Assembly (NCBI GenBank): GCA_001692895.1
Contig: KV748176.1
Coordinates: 1,612,001-1,676,000, forward strand
DNA: 64,000 bases
Source of the DNA: Cenococcum geophilum 1.58
Taxonomy: Eukaryota; Ascomycota; Dothideomycetes; Gloniales; Gloniaceae
Direction of reading: 5' to 3'
This document shows positions 19,108-64,000 of this stretch, one piece after another. How positions within the stretch are numbered: position 1 is the stretch's first letter; every line of letters begins with the position of its first letter. The position numbers and the translations under genes are program-made. The notes under the pieces are model-generated. The model had not been told where the DNA came from. It worked only from the letters and a program-made list of their open reading frames with translations, and searched no databases.

Positions 19108-19374
19108 TGTAGTGGGGTACGCGGTCCCTCTTAGATAGTAAGTCACAGTGCTATTAGGTCTGTCGGTCGGTCGTAGTTAGTTAGTGGAAATCAGTAGGAA
19201 AGCAGTCAGTAAGAAGAGAAGAAAAGAGTGTATTTTGTGTCCCTTATGCCTGTCTAAGTTGTTAAAGACTCTAAAGGCTCTAGACCGATCTATATAACTT
19301 ATGGAAGGCCTAGGCTCTCCTAAAGCTATACCTAATCTAGATATTAAATCTAGGGGCCAAATTATACTACTATA
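19108..19374 (-). repeat. 3' LTR of gypsy element
   Basis: 267 bp, equal in length to 30091-30357. In element orientation it follows the stop of the extra ORF within a few bases, so the polypurine tract lies in the coding end or LTR edge. Confidence 0.93.
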
Positions 19375-22300
19375 TACCTCCCCTACCTAAGTCGTTGTCC
19401 CCTAACGACTTCCGAAACTCTAAAACTCCTTATCTTCGAAATAAAGGCGCGGTAGGTAATCGTATGCGTTCCTTGCCCTTACTATAAACCCAAGATAGTA
19501 AACAAGGAGACTTTGTTCTAGTTAAATAAGACCGTTCTTGTCTATTTAGCTAAGCAGTATAAGAGACTTTAGACTGGTGGCTCTTAGATAATATAGCTCT
19601 TTCGCGCCCTTCTATTTACTTAGTTCTGTCCTATAATTCTTTAGGCAACTCTGTATAACTCTATCCTTCTATAATAACCAGAGGCACTCTACTTAGGTTT
19701 ATTGCAATAGTTAAAGAATCGATTCCATTATTAACGCAGTAGAAGTATAAGCGGCTATTAAAGCGCTCTATTTCGGTTGTATATATAAGCTGAAACGCAT
19801 CCTTATAGTTTTTAACAGCCCTAAAATAGTAGGAATACATTTATTTCCTAACTTCGTTCCTATTACCATTAAGAAGAAGGTTATAATCTTAAATTACCAC
19901 TAAAGAATCCTATCGCCGTGCACGTTAAATCTAAGGTGTATAGGCGAATTGGTGTTTATACCCTATACAAGACAACTTCGTGAAAANTTTCCTATGGGNG
20001 TGGGTTTANGTAACGAGGTTCGCCCTTATAAAATACCATTAGTAGGTTATTTTTGGGGAGAGTACCTATTAATTACTAATTCCCTACCCATTTCTTTAGC
20101 AAGGAGAAGAGATAGGGTACAGGATAAAAAGTCGCTTTAGGGGTAATTGGTAGCTGCTTCCAAGCTAGCAAGCTATTGTAACGCCTCTTATTCTTAAGTG
20201 CAAAACTATTTAATAAAAATCTTTCTTTTAGAGCGCTTTTTCTACTCTAGGAACGGCAGAATACGGCAGAAATAGATAAAAGAGCCAGGATTTCCTTTTC
20301 TTGGTGTAAACTGGACCATAGTAAGCAAAATACCAGAACGAAAAAACACCAGTCGCTAGAGCTCCCCTAGCATTTTAAAAACGGGCCAGAGTGTCCACTT
20401 AGCTACTAGTACATGTTAAGCTGCCTAGGAAGGATTCATGTATATAGAACTATAGCGCCATAGCCTAGAGGCTGCATGCGCAGTATTGTACGTAGTATAA
20501 TACAACGGATATAAAAAAAAAAAAAAAATCCTATCGCCGTCTACCTAAAAGAGCGTTAGATAAGGCGCTGGCAGCTATAAGTTTAACTATAGTAGGGAAG
20601 CGGTATAGGATTGCGCTATAAAGATTAGTATGTCTAGATAGTGTATAGGGCGGCGCTTTTAAGTCTTAGTATGCATCTGCCAGCTCTACCTAGGTTCCTC
20701 TTTCCGTGACCTTAAGGTTATTATAATTGTCCTAAATACTAATAAACTATAGTAGTATTATTTGCTGGGTCCCAGTTAAAGGTCCTTTTGCTCTATAAGG
20801 AAGGTAAGGCATAGTTATATATATATCTCCTTTCTTATAAGGCTGAGCTACCTAGTTAGTTGTATATTTCTTTACATCCTTAGTAGTCCAGTTATAGTCC
20901 GAGATTTTATACACGAATCTATCGCCCTTAGTTAATCCTCGCGCTTTAAGATCTGCCTACTATAATTTTAAGTAATAATATATACTGGGTAGGATAATTA
21001 TACAGTTGTCCTTAGTTTTATTATCTAGAGAAATGCTTCCTTAGATTATATTAGCACCGCGTTTACTTTTAAGGAGCGAGGGAATATTAACGTTAATGTG
21101 GCGGAACGCTGTAGAGTCTCCTTTAACCGCGAATTTCGTATAATAAGGGTAGGAAATAAGCCGCCAATAACTATTAGGTCTAAGAGTATAATAGAGATGA
21201 TAATACTAAGGATCTTATCTTATTAGCTGCTAGTAGAGACTATAAACCATCGTTCTTAACTAGCTATAATTTAGCCGCCCATTAATTAGACGCTAATAAT
21301 GGCGGTATATACGCATTTCCTCGTTAATTATTATTAAGATGCTAGAATCCCACTACTATCCAAACACGTTCAAAATTACGGATTTTTCTTACTGCCATAC
21401 TTCTTAGTCTTTTAGTGATATTATTTAATTAAGCAAAGCCTTTCTATTATAGAAAAACCTTGGCGCTAAGTTATAAATAAACTTATACGGTCCTAAGGAA
21501 TTAGACGGAACTAGAGGTCTATAAGCCTTTCTAAACTAGAAGTATATAATAGGATCGGTCTTTATGGTGCTAAGGTAGTTATAGGCGTGATATATTAAAC
21601 AGAGTCTGTAATATAGTGCGGTATAGTTTAGACCTTTTATCGCTAAACCTATATATCCTCCTATTGCTTAAGTATATATCTAGCAGACCTTATATATCTC
21701 TAGATTAAAACTAGCTGCCCTATACTAGCTGCGTAGGAGCTTTATAACCTCTATTAGTTTAATTTTAGTAGTTTAATTTAGGGACACCTTAAAATGCGCT
21801 AGCATATTATTCTTATAGTTATATCCTTATTTTATACAGAGTACCGCTATAGTATCTACAGCCTCCTTAATATACTCTACATTATCTCCCGGCTTAATAA
21901 TATTCTTATTAAATATTAATTTTACTCCTAGCCCTCCTACTTCCGGGTGAGTAATCATTAGCCCCCTTTTTAGATTCCTTCTTAATAAAGATACTAGCAG
22001 CTATGGGGGCGAGCTAATAGGCGTTCCAGCTGCGAGAATGCTCTTATTTATAGATAATAAAGGCAAGTTGACTAATATAGGCGATCCTTATTAGGACGGA
22101 CTTGGTATAATGCTAACGCCTCCTCCTTAAACAGGTGTTGATAGCTAAAAGGCTAAGGGATTTATTACGTTAGAAGTATGCCGTAAATATATTTATAGTA
22201 TAAGAGCTAAGCTCTCTCCTGCTTGTCTAATTCCTACATTAGTAACCTCTAGTCCCACGGTAGTTAGTCTCCTACTTCTTAGCGGCAGGTCCTTATTTGG

Positions 22301-23130
22301 AATAAGGAAGCTAGTTAAATATCTTCCTAAACTATACTTATTTACTACCTAGTCTAATATTGCCCTTTCTGATATCTTAAATACGAGCGCAAAATTGGTT
22401 AGCTGTAGTTAAGTAGTGTTTTAGATGCCATGTCCTAGATATTTAAGCCTATTAATTAGAGCTTTATTAACTCTTACTATGACTTTAAGAAGTGGGTATA
22501 TTGCGAGCTTTTAGACGGCGGAGAGGAAGTTATAGGAGACTGCGTATTTTAGCGGTCCGTTAAGAATATCTTATCCCTAGGCCTTTTAGATAGTTTCTCT
22601 AGCTTTATTATATTAGTTTTTCTAATCTTTAGCCATTTTGCTAACGTTAGAGATGTTCTTAAAGATTAATATAAATATGTCCTTTCCTAGAGATATTTGC
22701 AGTCCGTTATCTTAGTTAATAAAATTAACTACTACACTAGCCGCATCTGCGTAGTTTTCTTATAAGAGCAAAATCTCGTTATAGATTTGGATGAGTACTA
22801 CTTAACGCTAATTAACCGTAAAGCCTTTGACTTCCGTTAGAACGTTACTAATTTATTACTTAGCTCCTTTATAGAGGACCAGTGGTCTGCTAGATAAAGA
22901 TATAATAAGTATACTATTATTTTTAATTCTGCTTAGTTTCTACTTTAGTTAATTATAACTGTCTTTAAGGTTTATTAAGGGTAAAAAGGTAAAGTTCTAA
23001 ATAGGGTTTTCTAATTTAAATAGTCTACTAAATCTAGGTAGCAGTGTAGAGTTCTACTAGCTCTAATTGTTAAATAGACCAATTATAATTTTCTATGCCC
23101 AGTATAGAAAATCGCTATTAGCTCGGTGAA
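19375..23130 (-). pseudogene. Third ORF of gypsy element, dioxygenase-like C-terminal half
   Basis: A single minus-strand frame can be followed from about 23130 to the edge of the 3' LTR (19375), skipping only the insertion at 19920-20527; its stops are at TAG/TAA/TGA expected from RIP of Gln/Trp. That is about 1000 codons after pol. The region 21100-20960 reads FRHINVNIPSLL...SISLDNKTKDNCIIILPSIYYY, matching the pattern HxD ... D/E-x-G-C-x-x-x-x-PGSH of phytanoyl-CoA-type 2OG-Fe(II) oxygenases if RIP is allowed for (Asp to Asn, His to Tyr). Further C-terminal text includes RGLTKGDRFVYKISDYNWTT near 20880-20940. The N-terminal half is unrecognised. This gene is not part of the standard gypsy set; fold assignment is inference. 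Confidence 0.6.
19920..20527 (+). mobile_element. Poly(A)-tailed insertion (SINE-like or truncated LINE)
   Basis: 608 bp ending in a run of about 16 A (20513-20528) and flanked by a 13-14 bp duplication, AATCCTATCGCCGT, at 19906-19919 and 20527-20540. This is the outcome of target-primed reverse transcription. CpA/TpG are normal here, so it is not RIPed, unlike the host gypsy. Near the 5' end are a box A-like stretch (TAGGCGAATTGG, 19941) and a box B-like stretch (CGAGGTTCGC, 20014) spaced like tRNA promoter boxes, which would make it a tRNA-derived SINE; three N bases lie between them. The 63-codon frame at 19949-20140 has no recognised product. Confidence 0.85.
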
Positions 23131-23289: not shown

Positions 23290-26200
23290 AAAGGATTGCA
23301 CGGCTGTTATCTATACCCCCTCCCCTGCCGTAGAACTTAACTGTCCCCTAGTTAAATGTTTCGTATTTAGTTTTATTAAACGATCTTTCTAGAATACGCA
23401 CTTCTTAAACTACGTGGTGTTGCGATACTGGTGGATTTTATATATCTTTCTTAGGCTCTGGCTCTGCTATTATTTCTTATAGTATAGTTCCGCCTAATTA
23501 GTTAAGCTAGTCTTCCTAGTGGACCTTAGATATCTGTCGTTAATAGAACCTCTTTAATCTATTTCCTAGAGTTTAATCACGAAATGGTATACTATTAAGA
23601 TCCTTAATTAAGTATTATCCTTTATAAGGGTAACTTTTATATATACGGAATAGGCCTAGCCACTTTAGATCTAACTTGCGACTGCTAGAATAGTCTTGCT
23701 TAAATTACGCGTTATAAAGTATAACTATGTCCCTAACCTTAAATATGTCCTAGCGAACACGGCGGATATTATTAAAATATTCTTTATTTGCCTCCCTTAG
23801 TTGTCTTATACGCGCAATAGCCTCTTATATATTTATGTCTCTTTAGTTAAACTACTTTATATAAAGTATTAGTAGCTTTATAGTAGTCCGGACTATTTAC
23901 TAGGGCAGTATTTACTAAGTAGGTATGTAGAGTTTAATAGGAAGGACATGCTTATATCCGCATATAACTCTCGCTAGTGTTATTCCTATAGGTTGCTTAA
24001 CGGTTGTTCTATCTACCTATAAAACAGTATAGAGATTATTTAGCTATAAGCTATCTATCTTTGCTAAAGCGTTTACTATAGGCTTATATCCTCGCTCTAT
24101 TAAGCCTTGTCCCTACGGGTGATATACGGAAGCTATAACCCTTTTAATATTATAGAGCTCCGTAAACGCAGCGGTTATATCAGCATTTTCTCTACTACTA
24201 TTTATAGAAAGCTGTCCGAATACTCCCCATTTATAGATAATATCTTTATAGAGAAACTTCGCTACGCTTTTTATATCCTTTTTCTAAAGGGCTTAAGCTT
24301 CTACTTATCTAGATATGTATTCTCGAGTAGTAGCTAGGTATTAGAAACTGAGATAAGTTATTAGTATAAATATAATATCTACGGTCACTTAGTGCTATAA
24401 AATGGACTCCTATATAGGGTATATTGCTTCTTCTTTTTATCCTAGCTATTGTTTCTAGCATTATAGGTATAACTTAATATGCTATAATATCTAATCCCAT
24501 AGTCCTGGCCACTAATATTAATTTAAGACTCTTTAATATATTCCTTCTTGTCTATAATATTTACTCTAATTATAAAGGTTCTTAATAATCTCTTACTGAG
24601 TATTTTCGTTATTAATTACCCTTCGCATTAGCATATTTTTTAACTATTGGCGGAAGAGCTATCAATTACGCACTAGGAATTTTAGTGTATGTCGTTTAAA
24701 CTTTTTAAATTCTTTAGTATTTATTTCTTTTAGACGTCGTAAGGTTACTAGCCATTTTGCAATCTTCTAAGACTCCCCTAAATACGAGTCTTCCAGTAGT
24801 AGATCTATCTCTATTTTAACTAGGCTAGCTATATATTCTAAAGCACTTAGTTCGCAGTTAATGAACTCTTTAATATCCTTAGTCGGCTTATTAGGTCGTT
24901 TGCTATCTGGTGGTTATTATAATAGTCTATTAGCTAGGCTATTCTTTTTCCCTAGAATATGCCTAACATTAAAGTCCCATAACTAAATCTATGCTAGCCA
25001 TTATGTTATTAAGGCTCCTAGTAAATCGGTAGCAGTATAATTTAGTTACGCGACTAAGGTATTCGCATTTGCCTTAACTATAAAGCGGACGCTATATAGG
25101 TATACTTGACACTTCTTTAATATATATAGTAATACTTAATATTTAAGCTTTCCTAAATTATACTTCTGCTCCGCTCGAGACTAGATGCCGCTTTTATATT
25201 AATATAGGTGGCGATGACCTTACACGTCTAGTTATATAAGACCGCATCTCTACCTATTCTTATATCCGTTAATAGCAAGAACAATTAGCCTAGCCCCCTT
25301 ATTATAATCTAGTTAAACTAACGTAGGTGCTATAGCGATTGCATACTTTAGAGTCTTTATAGCGGCTATTTACTCTATACCCTATACGAACGGAATGTTT
25401 ACTTATAGCAGTTAGAAGATTAACTCTGCCTTTATTACAAAGTCTTCTACCTATATTTAGTAATATATGATAACTCCTATAAATGCTTAGGCAGATATAA
25501 TATCTTTATAGTCTCTCTAGTAAATAATCTTTGTAACTTTCGACTCTTTTAGATATCGCCCCTTTCTATTATAGCGGTAACTAACTACTATAATCTCGTC
25601 CTTATAGAAATAAGACTTTACGCCTAAGATTATACACCTAGCTTGTTCTAAATCTGTAAGTACTCTATCTAGCTATATAATGTGTTCTAGAATATATCTA
25701 CGCATGCCTAAAAAGCTCTCTTCTCCATTATATACTATCTATGGCCCTTTTACTATAATATTATCTAGAAACGGCAAGGTATAGTATAGGATATGTCGCT
25801 CTAGAATTTTAGTAATTGTCTTTATAAACTAGGCTACCGAATTCGTTCCTTTTATAGGTACTATTATTTATTATAGAAGTCCTAGAGGTGTTATAAAGGC
25901 CGTTAGGTTCCTGCTTTCTATATCTAGCTCCAATTGGTTATATTTAGAGAAGAAGTCAACTAGAGATATAACCTTACACCCCGCAAACTTCTTAGAAAAC
26001 TTATTAGCATATAGCGGCAGATTTACGTCCCTAATAGTTACTCGGTTGATATTTATTACTATATTAATTAGCCTGTACTTCTTATATTCCTTTTTACTTA
26101 TAAGAAACTATAGATTCCTATATAGGCTTTTGCAATATTCTAGAGTCCCTTAAGCTAGTCGTTCTTATAATATATTTATTACTTCCCCTTATAGGGCCCT

Positions 26201-29200
26201 TAGTATAGGGAAGTTTGGCACTTACTATGCTTTATACGGTATAGTCTTAATCTTTAATAGTGGAGTTACGTCTCTACTAATATAACCTATCTTAGAGAAC
26301 TCCTATGCTAGAGCTTCTTCTTAGTTAAATAATATGGCCTTAAAGATTTCTCGTTCTCTTGGCTAGAGGTCCCCTATAATTACGCGCTCTAGTTATTCTA
26401 GCTTTAGCCGTATACTATAGGCTAGCTTAGTATACCGCGGCTTAAGGAAATAATTATATGGATTAAAGGGCAACCCTTAAATAGACGCCTTTTGCTAACG
26501 CAAGGCCACTTCTTACCACTCCATTATTCCTTCTATAACCGTTCTGTCTAGTGCTAACGAATTAACTAGGCAGACTTTCTCTGCCTTTCGTTTATACGTA
26601 GTTGCTACACTTATAGCGTTCTATTAGGCCTTGCTTTTATAGCCTTCTATTTATATTATAAATAAATCCGTTATCTTTAACATTTAATATATAAGGAATC
26701 CAGCCTTTGCTTTAAATACTAGCTTCTACCTTCCTCCTAAGTGCTTCTTTAGGACTTCCTTTAACGTTTTGCTGTCGAGCTCTCTCTATTTAGCGTTATG
26801 CTCTTCTTCCCGTTAATTGCCCTGTTTAGCGGATATTTAAAATGGTAGACGCCCTTGTTAAAGTTATACCTTATTTCCCTCCTCTTTGTCCTTAGCGTCC
26901 TCCTTGTCCTAATACGCCGGGTTATAAGTAACCCCGGATATAATTTTAGCGGTTATACCGGTTATACGTTTCCTAAACTACTACTTATACTAATTCCTTT
27001 ATCTAGTCTAAGGAATATTACGTCCTTATAGGATATTAAGAACCTTATTTTAACTCCGCCATCTTTTAATTAAATAATGTAAGATACCTAGCCTATTACG
27101 GTTTGCTGCGTTATTAGTCTAGCCCTTACTAACTACGGCTTACTAAGTATTACCTTATATGACATTTCTCCTACAGTAATAAAAGTCGTGGATATTAAGA
27201 CGTTACCTATAACTATAGGGGCTATATACACTAATTTAATGAACTTAGACTAAGTCCTATTTATAGATGTTAAACGTACGCCCTATAACTATAGAGGCAG
27301 ACTTAATATTAGTAAGCTATGTTATAGAGCCATACTTTCCTTAATAAGGTTAAGCTCCGCTCTAAAGTTAATTAAGTACTTAACCCTTTTATCTCCTATC
27401 TATGCTTCTACCTTTAGACATTATTATTAAAACTAGGTAAATCCTACTTCCCGTTTAATCTAGTCTACCTCCGTAGTTATTAGGCCAGCTTAATTAGCAT
27501 AAAACGTTAGGTACGCCGATAATATAAATGCCTTAACACCCTCTTGCTTTTGTTAGTAGGGCTCTATAAGAGGTAGTAGGAGCGGCTTAAAGAATAACCT
27601 TATAAATTTAGGCATATATATAAGGCAGTTACTAATAATAACTTTAATAGTTTTTAACAAGATCTTGTCCGCTATTACGGTTAGGCTTAGGACGTTCCCT
27701 TTTAGTATATCTATTATCCTGACTGGCTTTAGTCGCGGTGCTTTAGCGGTCGCGGTCGCTTCCGTTCCTTATTCTACTTCTCTTCTTAGCTATTTAGTAT
27801 AGTCCATTTTATTAGTCTTCTTATTACTTACTAGTGATTGGGGAGCCTGCCGCTATAGTCGTAGTGCGATTTAGATATGTCCTTCTGGTTATATATTTTA
27901 AACTATTGCTAGTTACGAACCAGTTGGTTTTGGAGGTGGTTTCGTTACCCTTACGTCTCCTCTTAGCTTCCTAAGATTGTATAACCGTGTTATAGGCTAT
28001 AACTAGGTTGCTGCTCCTATTAGATTAATATATACCAACTCTACTTAATACACATCTTCCTAAGACTTGCCGAGCTCTTCTTTGCTTTTAGCGCCGTTAC
28101 TTTCTATAAGCTCTACTAAGGACGCGTTTGGTTGGATGCCTGTCGCCGTTATATTGGGATTGATATTCGCATTCTGCCTTAGCCAATCTTTAATAAACTA
28201 AATTTAATAGTTGCTTGGTAAATATGGGAGTGGATTTCCTAGGCGCTAACGTGTTCTAGTATAGATTTGGTTGTTTTTGTTTATATATAGGAACCCCCGG
28301 CTAACTAGTTCTTAAAGCTCTAAGTATTAGTTAATAAAACGATAAGGGCCTCTATATCTATATACGTCTTATTTTATGCCTAGTATATACTAAAGTTTCC
28401 TAGTCCTCTATACCTTCCTAGGCCTGGCTTATATCGCTTTTATAGCGCCCCCTTATAGGACAGTAGTAGTCTGTTGTTATTTATTACCGGTTATAGACCT
28501 GCTTATTCTTAACGCACTAACGCCTTATTTAGAAGCTGTATATACTATATTAGGTCTTAGCGAATCCTATTAAGGAACGTTATTGAAGATATAACTCTTA
28601 CTAATTTAACCGTCTTAAGATTAAGCTTCTGGAGTTGACTAGTAAGGTTCTCCAGCTTAGGGTCCGTCTCTTAGGTTATTTAACGGGCACTTACCGACTT
28701 ATTTAGCTAAGAGACTATAGGCGGCTAAAGAGTAGCATCTCTCTGGTTTAATATGGCCGGCTGCTACTTATGGAATTGTTTAACCAGCTAACGGAGACCT
28801 TGCTCCTTAGGGTTTATTATTAATAAGCGGTCTACGCCCTTATGCGAATTAAGCCTGTCTTTTACAGCCCTCCTTAGTAGGTGGAAGTTAAAAGACTCTT
28901 GTTTATTCGGGTCAGCTCCTGTCTTAGTTATAGTATATTTTTAATATTTAAATAGGAGTCCTTTTACAAACTAGTATCCTTATTTACGGTTTTCTAAATT
29001 ACTAGCTTTAGTAACCTTCTAGGAAATTAGTGTGAATTATTTACAGTACTTGCGTATACTACTAGGTAGGTTGTTCCTGTACTATAGTATATACGCTTCT
29101 AAAAATTCTATCGTCTTAACTTATTAAAAGTAGTTACTTCCTTAGTAGTCTGTCTAAAGCTTTTCTATAAGTTCTATTTATCTTTTAATAATAAACTTAG

Positions 29201-30090: not shown

Positions 30091-30357
30091 TATAGTAATA
30101 TACGCGGTCCCTCTTAGATAGTAAGTTACAGTGCTATCAGGTCTGTTAGTCGGTCGTGGTTAGTTAGTAGAAATTAGTAGGAAAGCAGTTAGTAAGAAGA
30201 GAAGAAAAGAGTGTATTTTGTGTCCCTTGTGCCTATCTGAGTTGTTAAAGACTCTAAAGGCTCTAGACCAATCTATATAACTTATAGAAGGCCTAGGCTC
30301 TCCCAAAGCTATGCCTAATCTAGATATTAAATTTAGGGGCTAAATTATACTACTATA
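30091..30357 (-). repeat. 5' LTR of gypsy element
   Basis: 267-bp partner of 19108-19374, differing mostly by transitions. Followed by the right target duplication GTAG. Confidence 0.93.
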
Positions 30358-30553
30358 GTAGAAGCCTTAGAACGTTAGTTGTTATATATATTATATAGGA
30401 AGCTAAAGAGTTATAGATAGGATAATAGATGTCCTAATAGGTATACTTAAGTAACTAGACTAGATATATAATAATAAGAGAGCTAATAATTCTATTCTTT
30501 GTGTTATAACTAGTTAGTAAAGTAGCTCTAAAGAGGTAGGGAAATAAGTTTAG

Positions 30554-30872
30554 GACAATCTAAGATATTAAAAAATGTCTAAGATTGTATAAAAAAGTGA
30601 AATATAATATAGCATTTTATTCTATAAGCGTAAGGTAAGGTGAAATATATAGCAGAGAGAGGTGGGGGGATAATTTAAGATATTATAAAAGGTCTAAGAT
30701 TATATAAAAAAAAGTGAAATATAATATGGTATTTTATTCTATAAGTATAAGATAAGGTAAAGTATATAGTAGAGAGAGGTAGGGATAATCTAAGATATTA
30801 TAAAAAGTTTAAGATTATATAAAATAAAGTAAAATATAATATAGTATTTTATCCTATAAGCGTAAAATAAGG
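30554..30872. repeat. 115-bp tandem repeat, three copies
   Basis: Three head-to-tail units beginning GA(C/T)AAT(C/T)TAAGATATT at about 30554, 30669 and 30784. Units carry AGTGAAATATAATATGGTATTTTATTCTATAAG-type sequence and differ by transitions and small A-run changes. No coding role seen. Confidence 0.85.
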
Positions 30873-34743: not shown

Positions 34744-35167
34744 TATTACGGACGCTTTAAGTACGATATTACAACTACTTAGAGAAGAGTTAAAAGAAGC
34801 TAGTTAGTTAATTTAGGCACGGTCCAGAATAGAGCCGGTAGAGCTATGTGACGAGAAATAGTAGCTAAGGTCATATAATATACTATATATTAAACAAGAG
34901 GAATGGGAGGAACTTACGTACCTTATATATAAGACGTACATCACGTATAAGAAGGATTTCATAGGAGTATAATTGTATATTTAAGGACCCTAGTCCCTAC
35001 CTAGATAGTTCCTTCCTTATAGTAATTCTTAGAATATAATTAGAGTTAATCTATTAGGTAACTACTCTACTAGTTATTATTACGTTGTTAACTTTTATAC
35101 TTATATTTCCTATATACCTAGCCCAATAATAAGCCTATTATAGTTCTTACTATAAGGTTCCGTTACA
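34744..35167 (+). repeat. 5' LTR of chromovirus
   Basis: 424 bp, partner of 42232-42656. Starts TATTACGGACGC (TG mutated to TA by RIP), ends CCGTTACA. Confidence 0.94.
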
Positions 35168-42231: not shown

Positions 42232-42656
42232 TATTACGGACGCTTTAAGTACAATATTATAACTACTTAGAGAAGAGTTAAAAGAAGCTAGTTAGTTAAT
42301 TTAGGCACGGTCCAGAATAGAGCTAGTAGAGCTATATAACGAGGAATAGTAGCTAAGGTTATATAATATACTACGTATTAAATAAGAGGAATGGGAGGAA
42401 CTTACGTACCTTATATATAAGACGTATATTATATATAAGAAGGATTTTATAGGAGTACGGTTGTGTATTTAAGGACCCTTAGTCCCTACCTAGATAGTTC
42501 CTTCCTTATAGTAATTCTTAGAATACAATTAGAGTTAATCTATTAGGTAACCACTCCACCAGTTATTATTACATTATTAACTTTTGTACTTGCATTTCCT
42601 ACACACCTAGCCTAATAACGAGCCCATTGTAGTTCTTGCTACAAGGTTCCGTTACA
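42232..42656 (+). repeat. 3' LTR of chromovirus
   Basis: 425 bp; preceded by the purine-rich AAAATAAAGAGGAGGGAGATAG that would serve as polypurine tract. Followed by target duplication TGCTA. Confidence 0.94.
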
Positions 42657-56530: not shown

Positions 56531-58931
<2,401 letters not shown>

Positions 58932-62998: not shown

Positions 62999-64000
62999 CT
63001 AGTACTTCACCGGCACCTTGAAAACCGGCACATTCCTAAACCCCTCCTCATCCCACCTGACCCTGTTCTTCTCATCCAACCACGCCCCCTCATCTGTCGC
63101 CGGAATCCCCACTGCCTCATTCTCCCGAACCTCCTGCTTACTAACCCCTATCTCATCCCTCGCAAGCCACACCTTTGGCGTCTTGGACGTGAACACCGGG
63201 TTAAGATACGCTGTTCTAAGCTCCTCATCCGAGTACTGCGGTGGATCCTCCTCGTCATCGTGCGAGGAAGCAAGCCAAGCCTTCATCGCCTTGTGCGAAG
63301 CGAAAATGTGGGGTTCAAAGAAGCTTGCGAGAGGTTCGATGACCTGTTTCGGGACCCTAATTTCCTGGCCAATACGTTGGACGCGCGATTCAGTTGCTGC
63401 GCCCTCTTCAGCGGCTGCTAGTAGCGGTGTATCTTCATCGTCATCCTCGTTCTGCAGATCGGCTGGGAGAAATGTTTCCAACGGGCCGAGGTGACGGTTC
63501 ATCGTATAGTTATAGACGACGGTACCTAGGAATAGGATGGCGATGAGAATAGACGGGCCGGTGGCTTTGCGGGCGCCGAAGAGACCGATTAGACATAGTT
63601 CGGCAATGTAGACGCCTGTGAGGAGTTGTTGCAGCGCGCGTGTGTAGAACTGGCCTTTGCTATCGATTTTGGTTTGGATAACAAAGAGGAGGTTGTATCG
63701 GTAGCTGAGGTAGTATAAGAAGAGGCCAATGGCAGCGAAGCCGAGGACGAGCGGCGCAATGCAGGAGTAAGCGATAGCTGGATGGCAGTTAGTGAGGTGT
63801 CTCCTATTTGAAGACCTCATAATGAATATATGCGCTTCATACCTATGATAGCCATGTTCGTGAACTTTGGATATACTTTGCCCCATCCGATTCCCTTCAT
63901 GCTCGTGTATCGGCTATATTTCTCACGCGGCGTCTTGTCCAAGAACAAGTCGTAGAAGAGGTATTCGAAGAGGTCGGAGTAGTTCAGGACATTTTGGGCT
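62999..64000 (-). CDS. CSC1/OSCA/TMEM63-type channel, C-terminal part
   Basis: Stop at 62999-63001; exon 62999-63777, intron 63778-63842 (GTATGAAG...CCATCCAG, 65 nt), exon from 63843 running off the right edge. The visible protein begins NYSDLFEYLFYDLFLDKTPR, SMKGIGWGKVYPKFTNMAII and then hydrophobic segments SCIAPLVLGFAAIGLFLYYL, LLTGVYIAELCLIGLF and SILIAILFLGTVVYNY, as in the RSN1/DUF221 seven-TM domain of fungal calcium-permeable stress-gated cation channels. A soluble acidic tail of about 150 residues follows (NEDDDEDTPLL, HDDEEDPPQYSDEELRTAY), ending VFKVPVKY. The frame is intact and un-RIPed. The N-terminal TM segments and the start are outside the window. Confidence 0.88.

Follow-up and report, generated by a model that had tools for sequence, protein, structure and literature searches.

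The stretch analyzed here (hereafter the window: 64,000 nt, positions 1,612,001 to 1,676,000 of contig 1, KV748176.1, in the 177-Mb, 162-contig genome of Cenococcum geophilum 1.58) contains an inactivated copy of a long terminal repeat (LTR) retrotransposon, classed as Ty3/gypsy-type from its LTR pair and from the domain order of a matching pol protein. It is quite probable that, in this genome, the lineage to which this copy belongs carries a third gene of its own: an Fe(II)/2-oxoglutarate (2OG) dioxygenase encoded between the integrase and the 3′ LTR. Extra protein domains fixed in LTR retrotransposons are described as rare (PMC9289625). A conserved dioxygenase gene in fungal gypsy elements, whose copies in this genome are heavily mutated, offers a direct handle on whether such elements counter repeat-induced point mutation (RIP) or silencing by stripping marks enzymatically, and a likely identity is gained for more than 100 proteins that are mostly nameless or "hypothetical."

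The two LTRs (257 nt each) are 93% identical, and all 17 of their differences are transitions, which fits RIP, rather than age, as the source. The pol read-through aligns without gaps to an intact database protein, P0118 (tblastn; 65% identity over 1,100 residues), whose Pfam domains follow the Ty3/gypsy order (RVT_1, RNase H, Integrase_H2C2, rve), with Integrase_H2C2 above its cutoff and rve below (26.0 bits; cutoff, 32.6). Searched directly against Pfam, the window pol read-through yields reverse transcriptase (RT) and RNase H matches, both below cutoff, and no integrase match. Two damaged read-throughs upstream of pol, where gag would be expected by position, gave no Pfam match or a single DUF4870 match far below cutoff.

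The third open reading frame (ORF3) starts about 538 nt downstream of the integrase end and is about 950 codons long; a preliminary description, made from the sequence alone, had recognized the long frame but placed its length nearer 1,000 codons. With stops written as X, its read-through served as a database query and matched P0002, a 950-amino-acid JGI metagenome protein (64% identity over 792 residues, gap-free), and the more distant P0003. Between 22903 and 20560, this frame has 45 stops in 781 codons, and the two alternative frames on the strand have 82 in 781 and 97 in 780. The window ORF differs from P0002 at 346 residues (52 being stops), of which 323 are explicable by C-to-T or G-to-A changes alone and 4 by T-to-C or A-to-G changes alone. 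Once RIP-direction changes are discounted, 23 of 949 positions still distinguish ORF3 from P0002. Since nearly all differences run in the RIP direction, P0002 is close to an intact version of this gene, and undamaged copies occur in nature. ORF3 is, as proposed earlier, a real long gene inside the element, damaged mainly by RIP-direction changes.

The frame is split by an insertion of ~607 bp, of which the poly(A) noted previously is only one part. It is bounded by 14-bp repeats (19906-19919 and 20527-20540) that look like a target duplication, and by its appearance it resembles a non-LTR retrotransposon. Over 514 bp it shares 99.2% identity with a copy elsewhere in the genome (L030/L061), so the insertion probably arrived late and escaped RIP.

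Copies of ORF3 are numerous. A genome search with P0002 scored 48 of 334 candidate places, the split copy in the window not being one of the 48: these share 59 to 70% identity with P0002, cover at least 930 residues in 46 cases, and each follow a single reading frame containing 33 to 62 stops. When three match lists are merged within 1.5 kb, at least 74 distinct places emerge. All 30 loci fetched with the N-terminal part of the ORF, among them that of the window, have the integrase end upstream in the same orientation; the gap is 535 to 553 nt in 29 of them and 726 nt in the remaining locus. Among those fetched with the C-terminal part, an LTR follows in 28 of 30, mostly at one distance; none was found in L014 or L025, and the match is partial in L028 and L035. 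The LTRs beside ORF3 copies are 74 to 94% identical to the window LTR, its own locus aside. Conversely, among the matches listed, 33 of 40 RT matches are followed on their strand, within 15 kb, by an ORF3 match (2.7 to 4.5 kb away in 28 and 4.8 to 11.2 kb in 5). The proposal of a long gene running from the integrase to the 3′ LTR on the strand of the element is thus borne out by the P0002 match and by the integrase and LTR flanks at other loci: the copies of the family that were read carry the ORF.

Relatives were sought with P0002 residues 330 to 950 (E ≤ 0.001; 7,993 candidates scored), which returned 110 database proteins, P0002 itself counted. Most carry no organism; of the 17 that do, one is filed under a moss name and 16 are from fungi (ascomycetes). 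P0086 is called PhyH by its JGI name, and the remaining proteins are labelled hypothetical, uncharacterised or unnamed. When the 110 are aligned together with P0003 (n = 111), each of H602, D604, H703 and R713 is conserved in 108 members, and R714 in 102. Nearly all natural relatives thus have a complete active site, with the iron triad HxD...H and the 2OG-binding Arg (presumably R713, by the roles familiar from the superfamily), and the spacing (HxD, ~100 residues, His, and Arg 10 to 11 residues on) follows the pattern of PhyH-type 2OG oxygenases. The window copy is without the Asp and the distal His: the former reads Asn and the latter Tyr, replacements of the kinds that the preliminary description had ascribed to RIP. 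The HxD...PGSH core proposed there holds only for the HxD, in that the distal His falls in the later LPHGAKGP stretch and not at "PSIY," and H642, which belongs to the PGMH stretch, is conserved in just 79 of the 111. Outside the active site, four Cys/His positions are nearly invariant: C361 (108 of 108 letters), C363 (109 of 109), C407 (111 of 111) and H410 (110 of 111).

Structure prediction suggests that the ORF3 protein comprises an N-terminal helical part, a linker (modeled at low confidence and probably disordered), a small helical CxC...CxxH domain, and a C-terminal dioxygenase. In the model, the catalytic domain is a double-stranded beta-helix that a fold search assigns to the PhyH/DUF1479 type. 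The closest solved folds are the DUF1479/PhyH proteins YbiU, YPO2976 and Candida Gig2 (PDB 4rgk, 7twe and 6akz), which differ from ORF3 in sharing just 11 to 12% identity with it and in their chains of 409 to 451 residues, which lack the N-terminal part and the CxC/CxxH domain; EctD, SnoN and GriE are also matched. Residues 356 to 488 of P0002, which hold the CxC and CxxH pairs, fold confidently on their own (mean predicted local distance difference test score, 88.9) and have no convincing fold match in the PDB; from its conserved residues, this unit probably binds zinc. The phytanoyl-CoA-dioxygenase-like domain proposed earlier is upheld by the residues of the relatives and by the fold matches, the relatives displaying both the beta-helix and the HxD/H pair. 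To judge from motif and model, the intact protein is very likely an active Fe(II)/2OG dioxygenase. Coordinates are collected in Table 1.

Table 1. Features of the retrotransposon copy and its third ORF (window coordinates)
Feature	Position	Strand	Basis or remark
Whole LTR element	30357-19118	-	~11 kb
5′ LTR	30101..30357	-	Direct repeat with 19118-19374
Probable gag/protease region	26959..28257	-	Position only
pol: reverse transcriptase, RNase H, integrase (damaged)	23441..26740	-	tblastn with P0118
ORF3, first part (P0002 residues 1-787)	20543..22903	-	Alignment to P0002
CxC pair (P0002 C361, C363), possible zinc site	21815..21823	-	Alignment
CxxH pair (P0002 C407, H410), possible zinc site	21674..21685	-	Alignment
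Dioxygenase domain (from P0002 residue 487)	20543..21445	-	Model and fold matches; coordinates from P0002 alignment
HxD motif, Fe site (P0002 H602, D604; Asp position reads Asn in window)	21092..21100	-	Alignment
Distal Fe-binding His (P0002 H703; reads Tyr in window)	20795..20797	-	Alignment, LPHGAKGP stretch
Conserved Arg R713 position (R714 = next codon)	20765..20767	-	Alignment
Poly(A)-ended insertion inside ORF3, ~607 bp	19920..20526	+	14-bp flanking repeats
ORF3, last part (P0002 residues 789-950)	19433..19918	-	Alignment to P0002
Purine-rich tract resembling a polypurine tract, directly upstream of 3′ LTR	19375..19390	-	By eye
3′ LTR	19118..19374	-	Direct repeat with 30101-30357

Several observations weigh against a dioxygenase gene belonging to the element. 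The window's own read-through matches no Pfam family at E ≤ 1, and matches to the PhyH profile (PF05721) are uneven: P0002 scores 17.1 bits against a curated cutoff of 22, 2 of 10 other relatives match at E ≤ 0.1 (one, P0086, above cutoff at 23.4 bits), and 13 of 48 match at E ≤ 0.01. All 42 genome copies read have Asn at residue 604 and Tyr at residue 703 (residue 602 is still His in 15 but Tyr in the other 27), and none has a complete active site. For 7 of 40 RT matches no ORF3 counterpart stands among the matches listed, though further ones may lie beyond these; the locus sets for the integrase and LTR sides were picked as best ORF matches and overlap in place; and the location of ORF3 inside a retrotransposon is demonstrated for this genome only. 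Finally, no analysis run here points to a particular substrate.

The first alternative is that one element lineage picked up a PhyH-type metabolic gene of the host by transduction, which then spread along with the element without serving it. Characterised PhyH-fold enzymes are, for the most part, small-molecule hydroxylases (EctD, SnoN and GriE being among the fold matches), and some relatives are recorded on long contigs from named fungal genomes and may be host genes there. Such a passenger is nevertheless unlikely: a single frame persists over at least 930 residues at 46 of the 48 scored places and beside LTR variants 74 to 94% alike, the catalytic and Cys/His residues are near-invariant among relatives, and the N-terminal and Cys/His parts are foreign to the matched PhyH chains of 240 to 450 residues. 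Less probable still is a noncatalytic pseudo-enzyme or structural accessory protein, either env-like or similar to RESC14, a PhyH pseudoenzyme in an RNA complex of trypanosome RNA editing (PMC12936278), as conservation of four active-site positions, each in 108 of 111 relatives, would be needless for such a protein. A TET/JBP-type DNA-methylcytosine oxidase, the link raised by the preliminary description, shares the broad superfamily, and fungal DNA transposons carry such genes (PMC12730594), but we regard this identity as very improbable: neither TET/JBP nor AlkB profiles from Pfam match P0002 or P0003 at E ≤ 10 or 48 members at E ≤ 0.01, and the fold matches listed are PhyH/DUF1479-like. A remote kinship to TET/JBP by fold may nonetheless exist, and the substrate may be analogous. 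That the frame is open by mere chance in AT-rich RIP DNA, an idea favored by the 52 in-frame stops of the window copy, has a negligible probability and is refuted by the 792-residue ungapped match to a natural protein, P0002, and by the 109 further database proteins that P0002 found.

Returning to a dioxygenase encoded by the element, we consider it likely that the enzyme serves its carrier, and by analogy a role in nucleic-acid modification or silencing is possible. The most likely mode of action, as a conjecture, is that the zinc-like and N-terminal parts would guide the enzyme to host chromatin or to the element's own RNA or DNA; by oxidizing a mark there, methyl or otherwise, it would lower silencing or RIP. 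More broadly, and tentatively, a widespread ascomycete gypsy lineage might use a PhyH-fold dioxygenase with a zinc-type domain to remove or alter a mark on the element's nucleic acid or chromatin and thereby counter RIP-type methylation or RNA silencing. Mobile elements would then have acquired a 2OG dioxygenase independently for a third time, the cases already described being the AlkB of orchid gypsy elements and the TET/JBP enzymes of fungal DNA transposons.

Gypsy_Pa of Phalaenopsis orchids (PMC9289625) is likewise a multicopy Ty3/gypsy element with an extra ORF ending in a C-terminal 2OG-Fe(II) dioxygenase, but its enzyme is an AlkB-type N6-methyladenosine RNA demethylase, with activity shown in vitro, and its carriers are 25-kb Ogre-related plant elements, whereas the element here is 11 kb and encodes a PhyH/DUF1479 fold plus a CxC/CxxH domain. 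This orchid AlkB is the only modifying oxygenase in an LTR retrotransposon that we found in the literature. The fungal TET/JBP carriers (PMC12730594) are also fungal mobile elements with a 2OG-Fe(II) dioxygenase, for which counter-silencing is proposed, but they are DNA transposons with an enzyme of another family, and the paper reports no TET/JBP found in retrotransposons. PHYHD1-type dioxygenases (PMC12709175) belong, like ORF3, to the PhyH family but are not element-encoded; PHYHD1 demethylates 2′-O-methyl nucleosides with no RNA demethylation detected, which speaks against assuming an RNA substrate. As analogies, orchid AlkB, TET/JBP, PHYHD1 and RESC14 do not fix the substrate of the ORF3 enzyme. 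Plant LTR retrotransposons also carry extra ORFs, including sense ORFs between pol and the 3′ LTR as here (PMC7264820), but those named in the abstract are env-like or antisense, with no dioxygenase.

Elsewhere in the window, a ~102-nt repeat occurs in three copies, spaced 115 to 117 nt apart, just outside the 5′ LTR (30539-30872). A second pair of LTR-like direct repeats (34744-35167 and 42232-42656) lies ~7.5 kb apart with 89 to 92% identity, and none of the 18 pol proteins tested matched there. Two host genes occupy the GC-richer right end of the window: a class II (D/K/N) tRNA synthetase piece at 56878-58398 (+), with a sub-cutoff OB-fold match nearby, and an RSN1_7TM/PHM7_ext channel-type protein at 62999-63910 (-).
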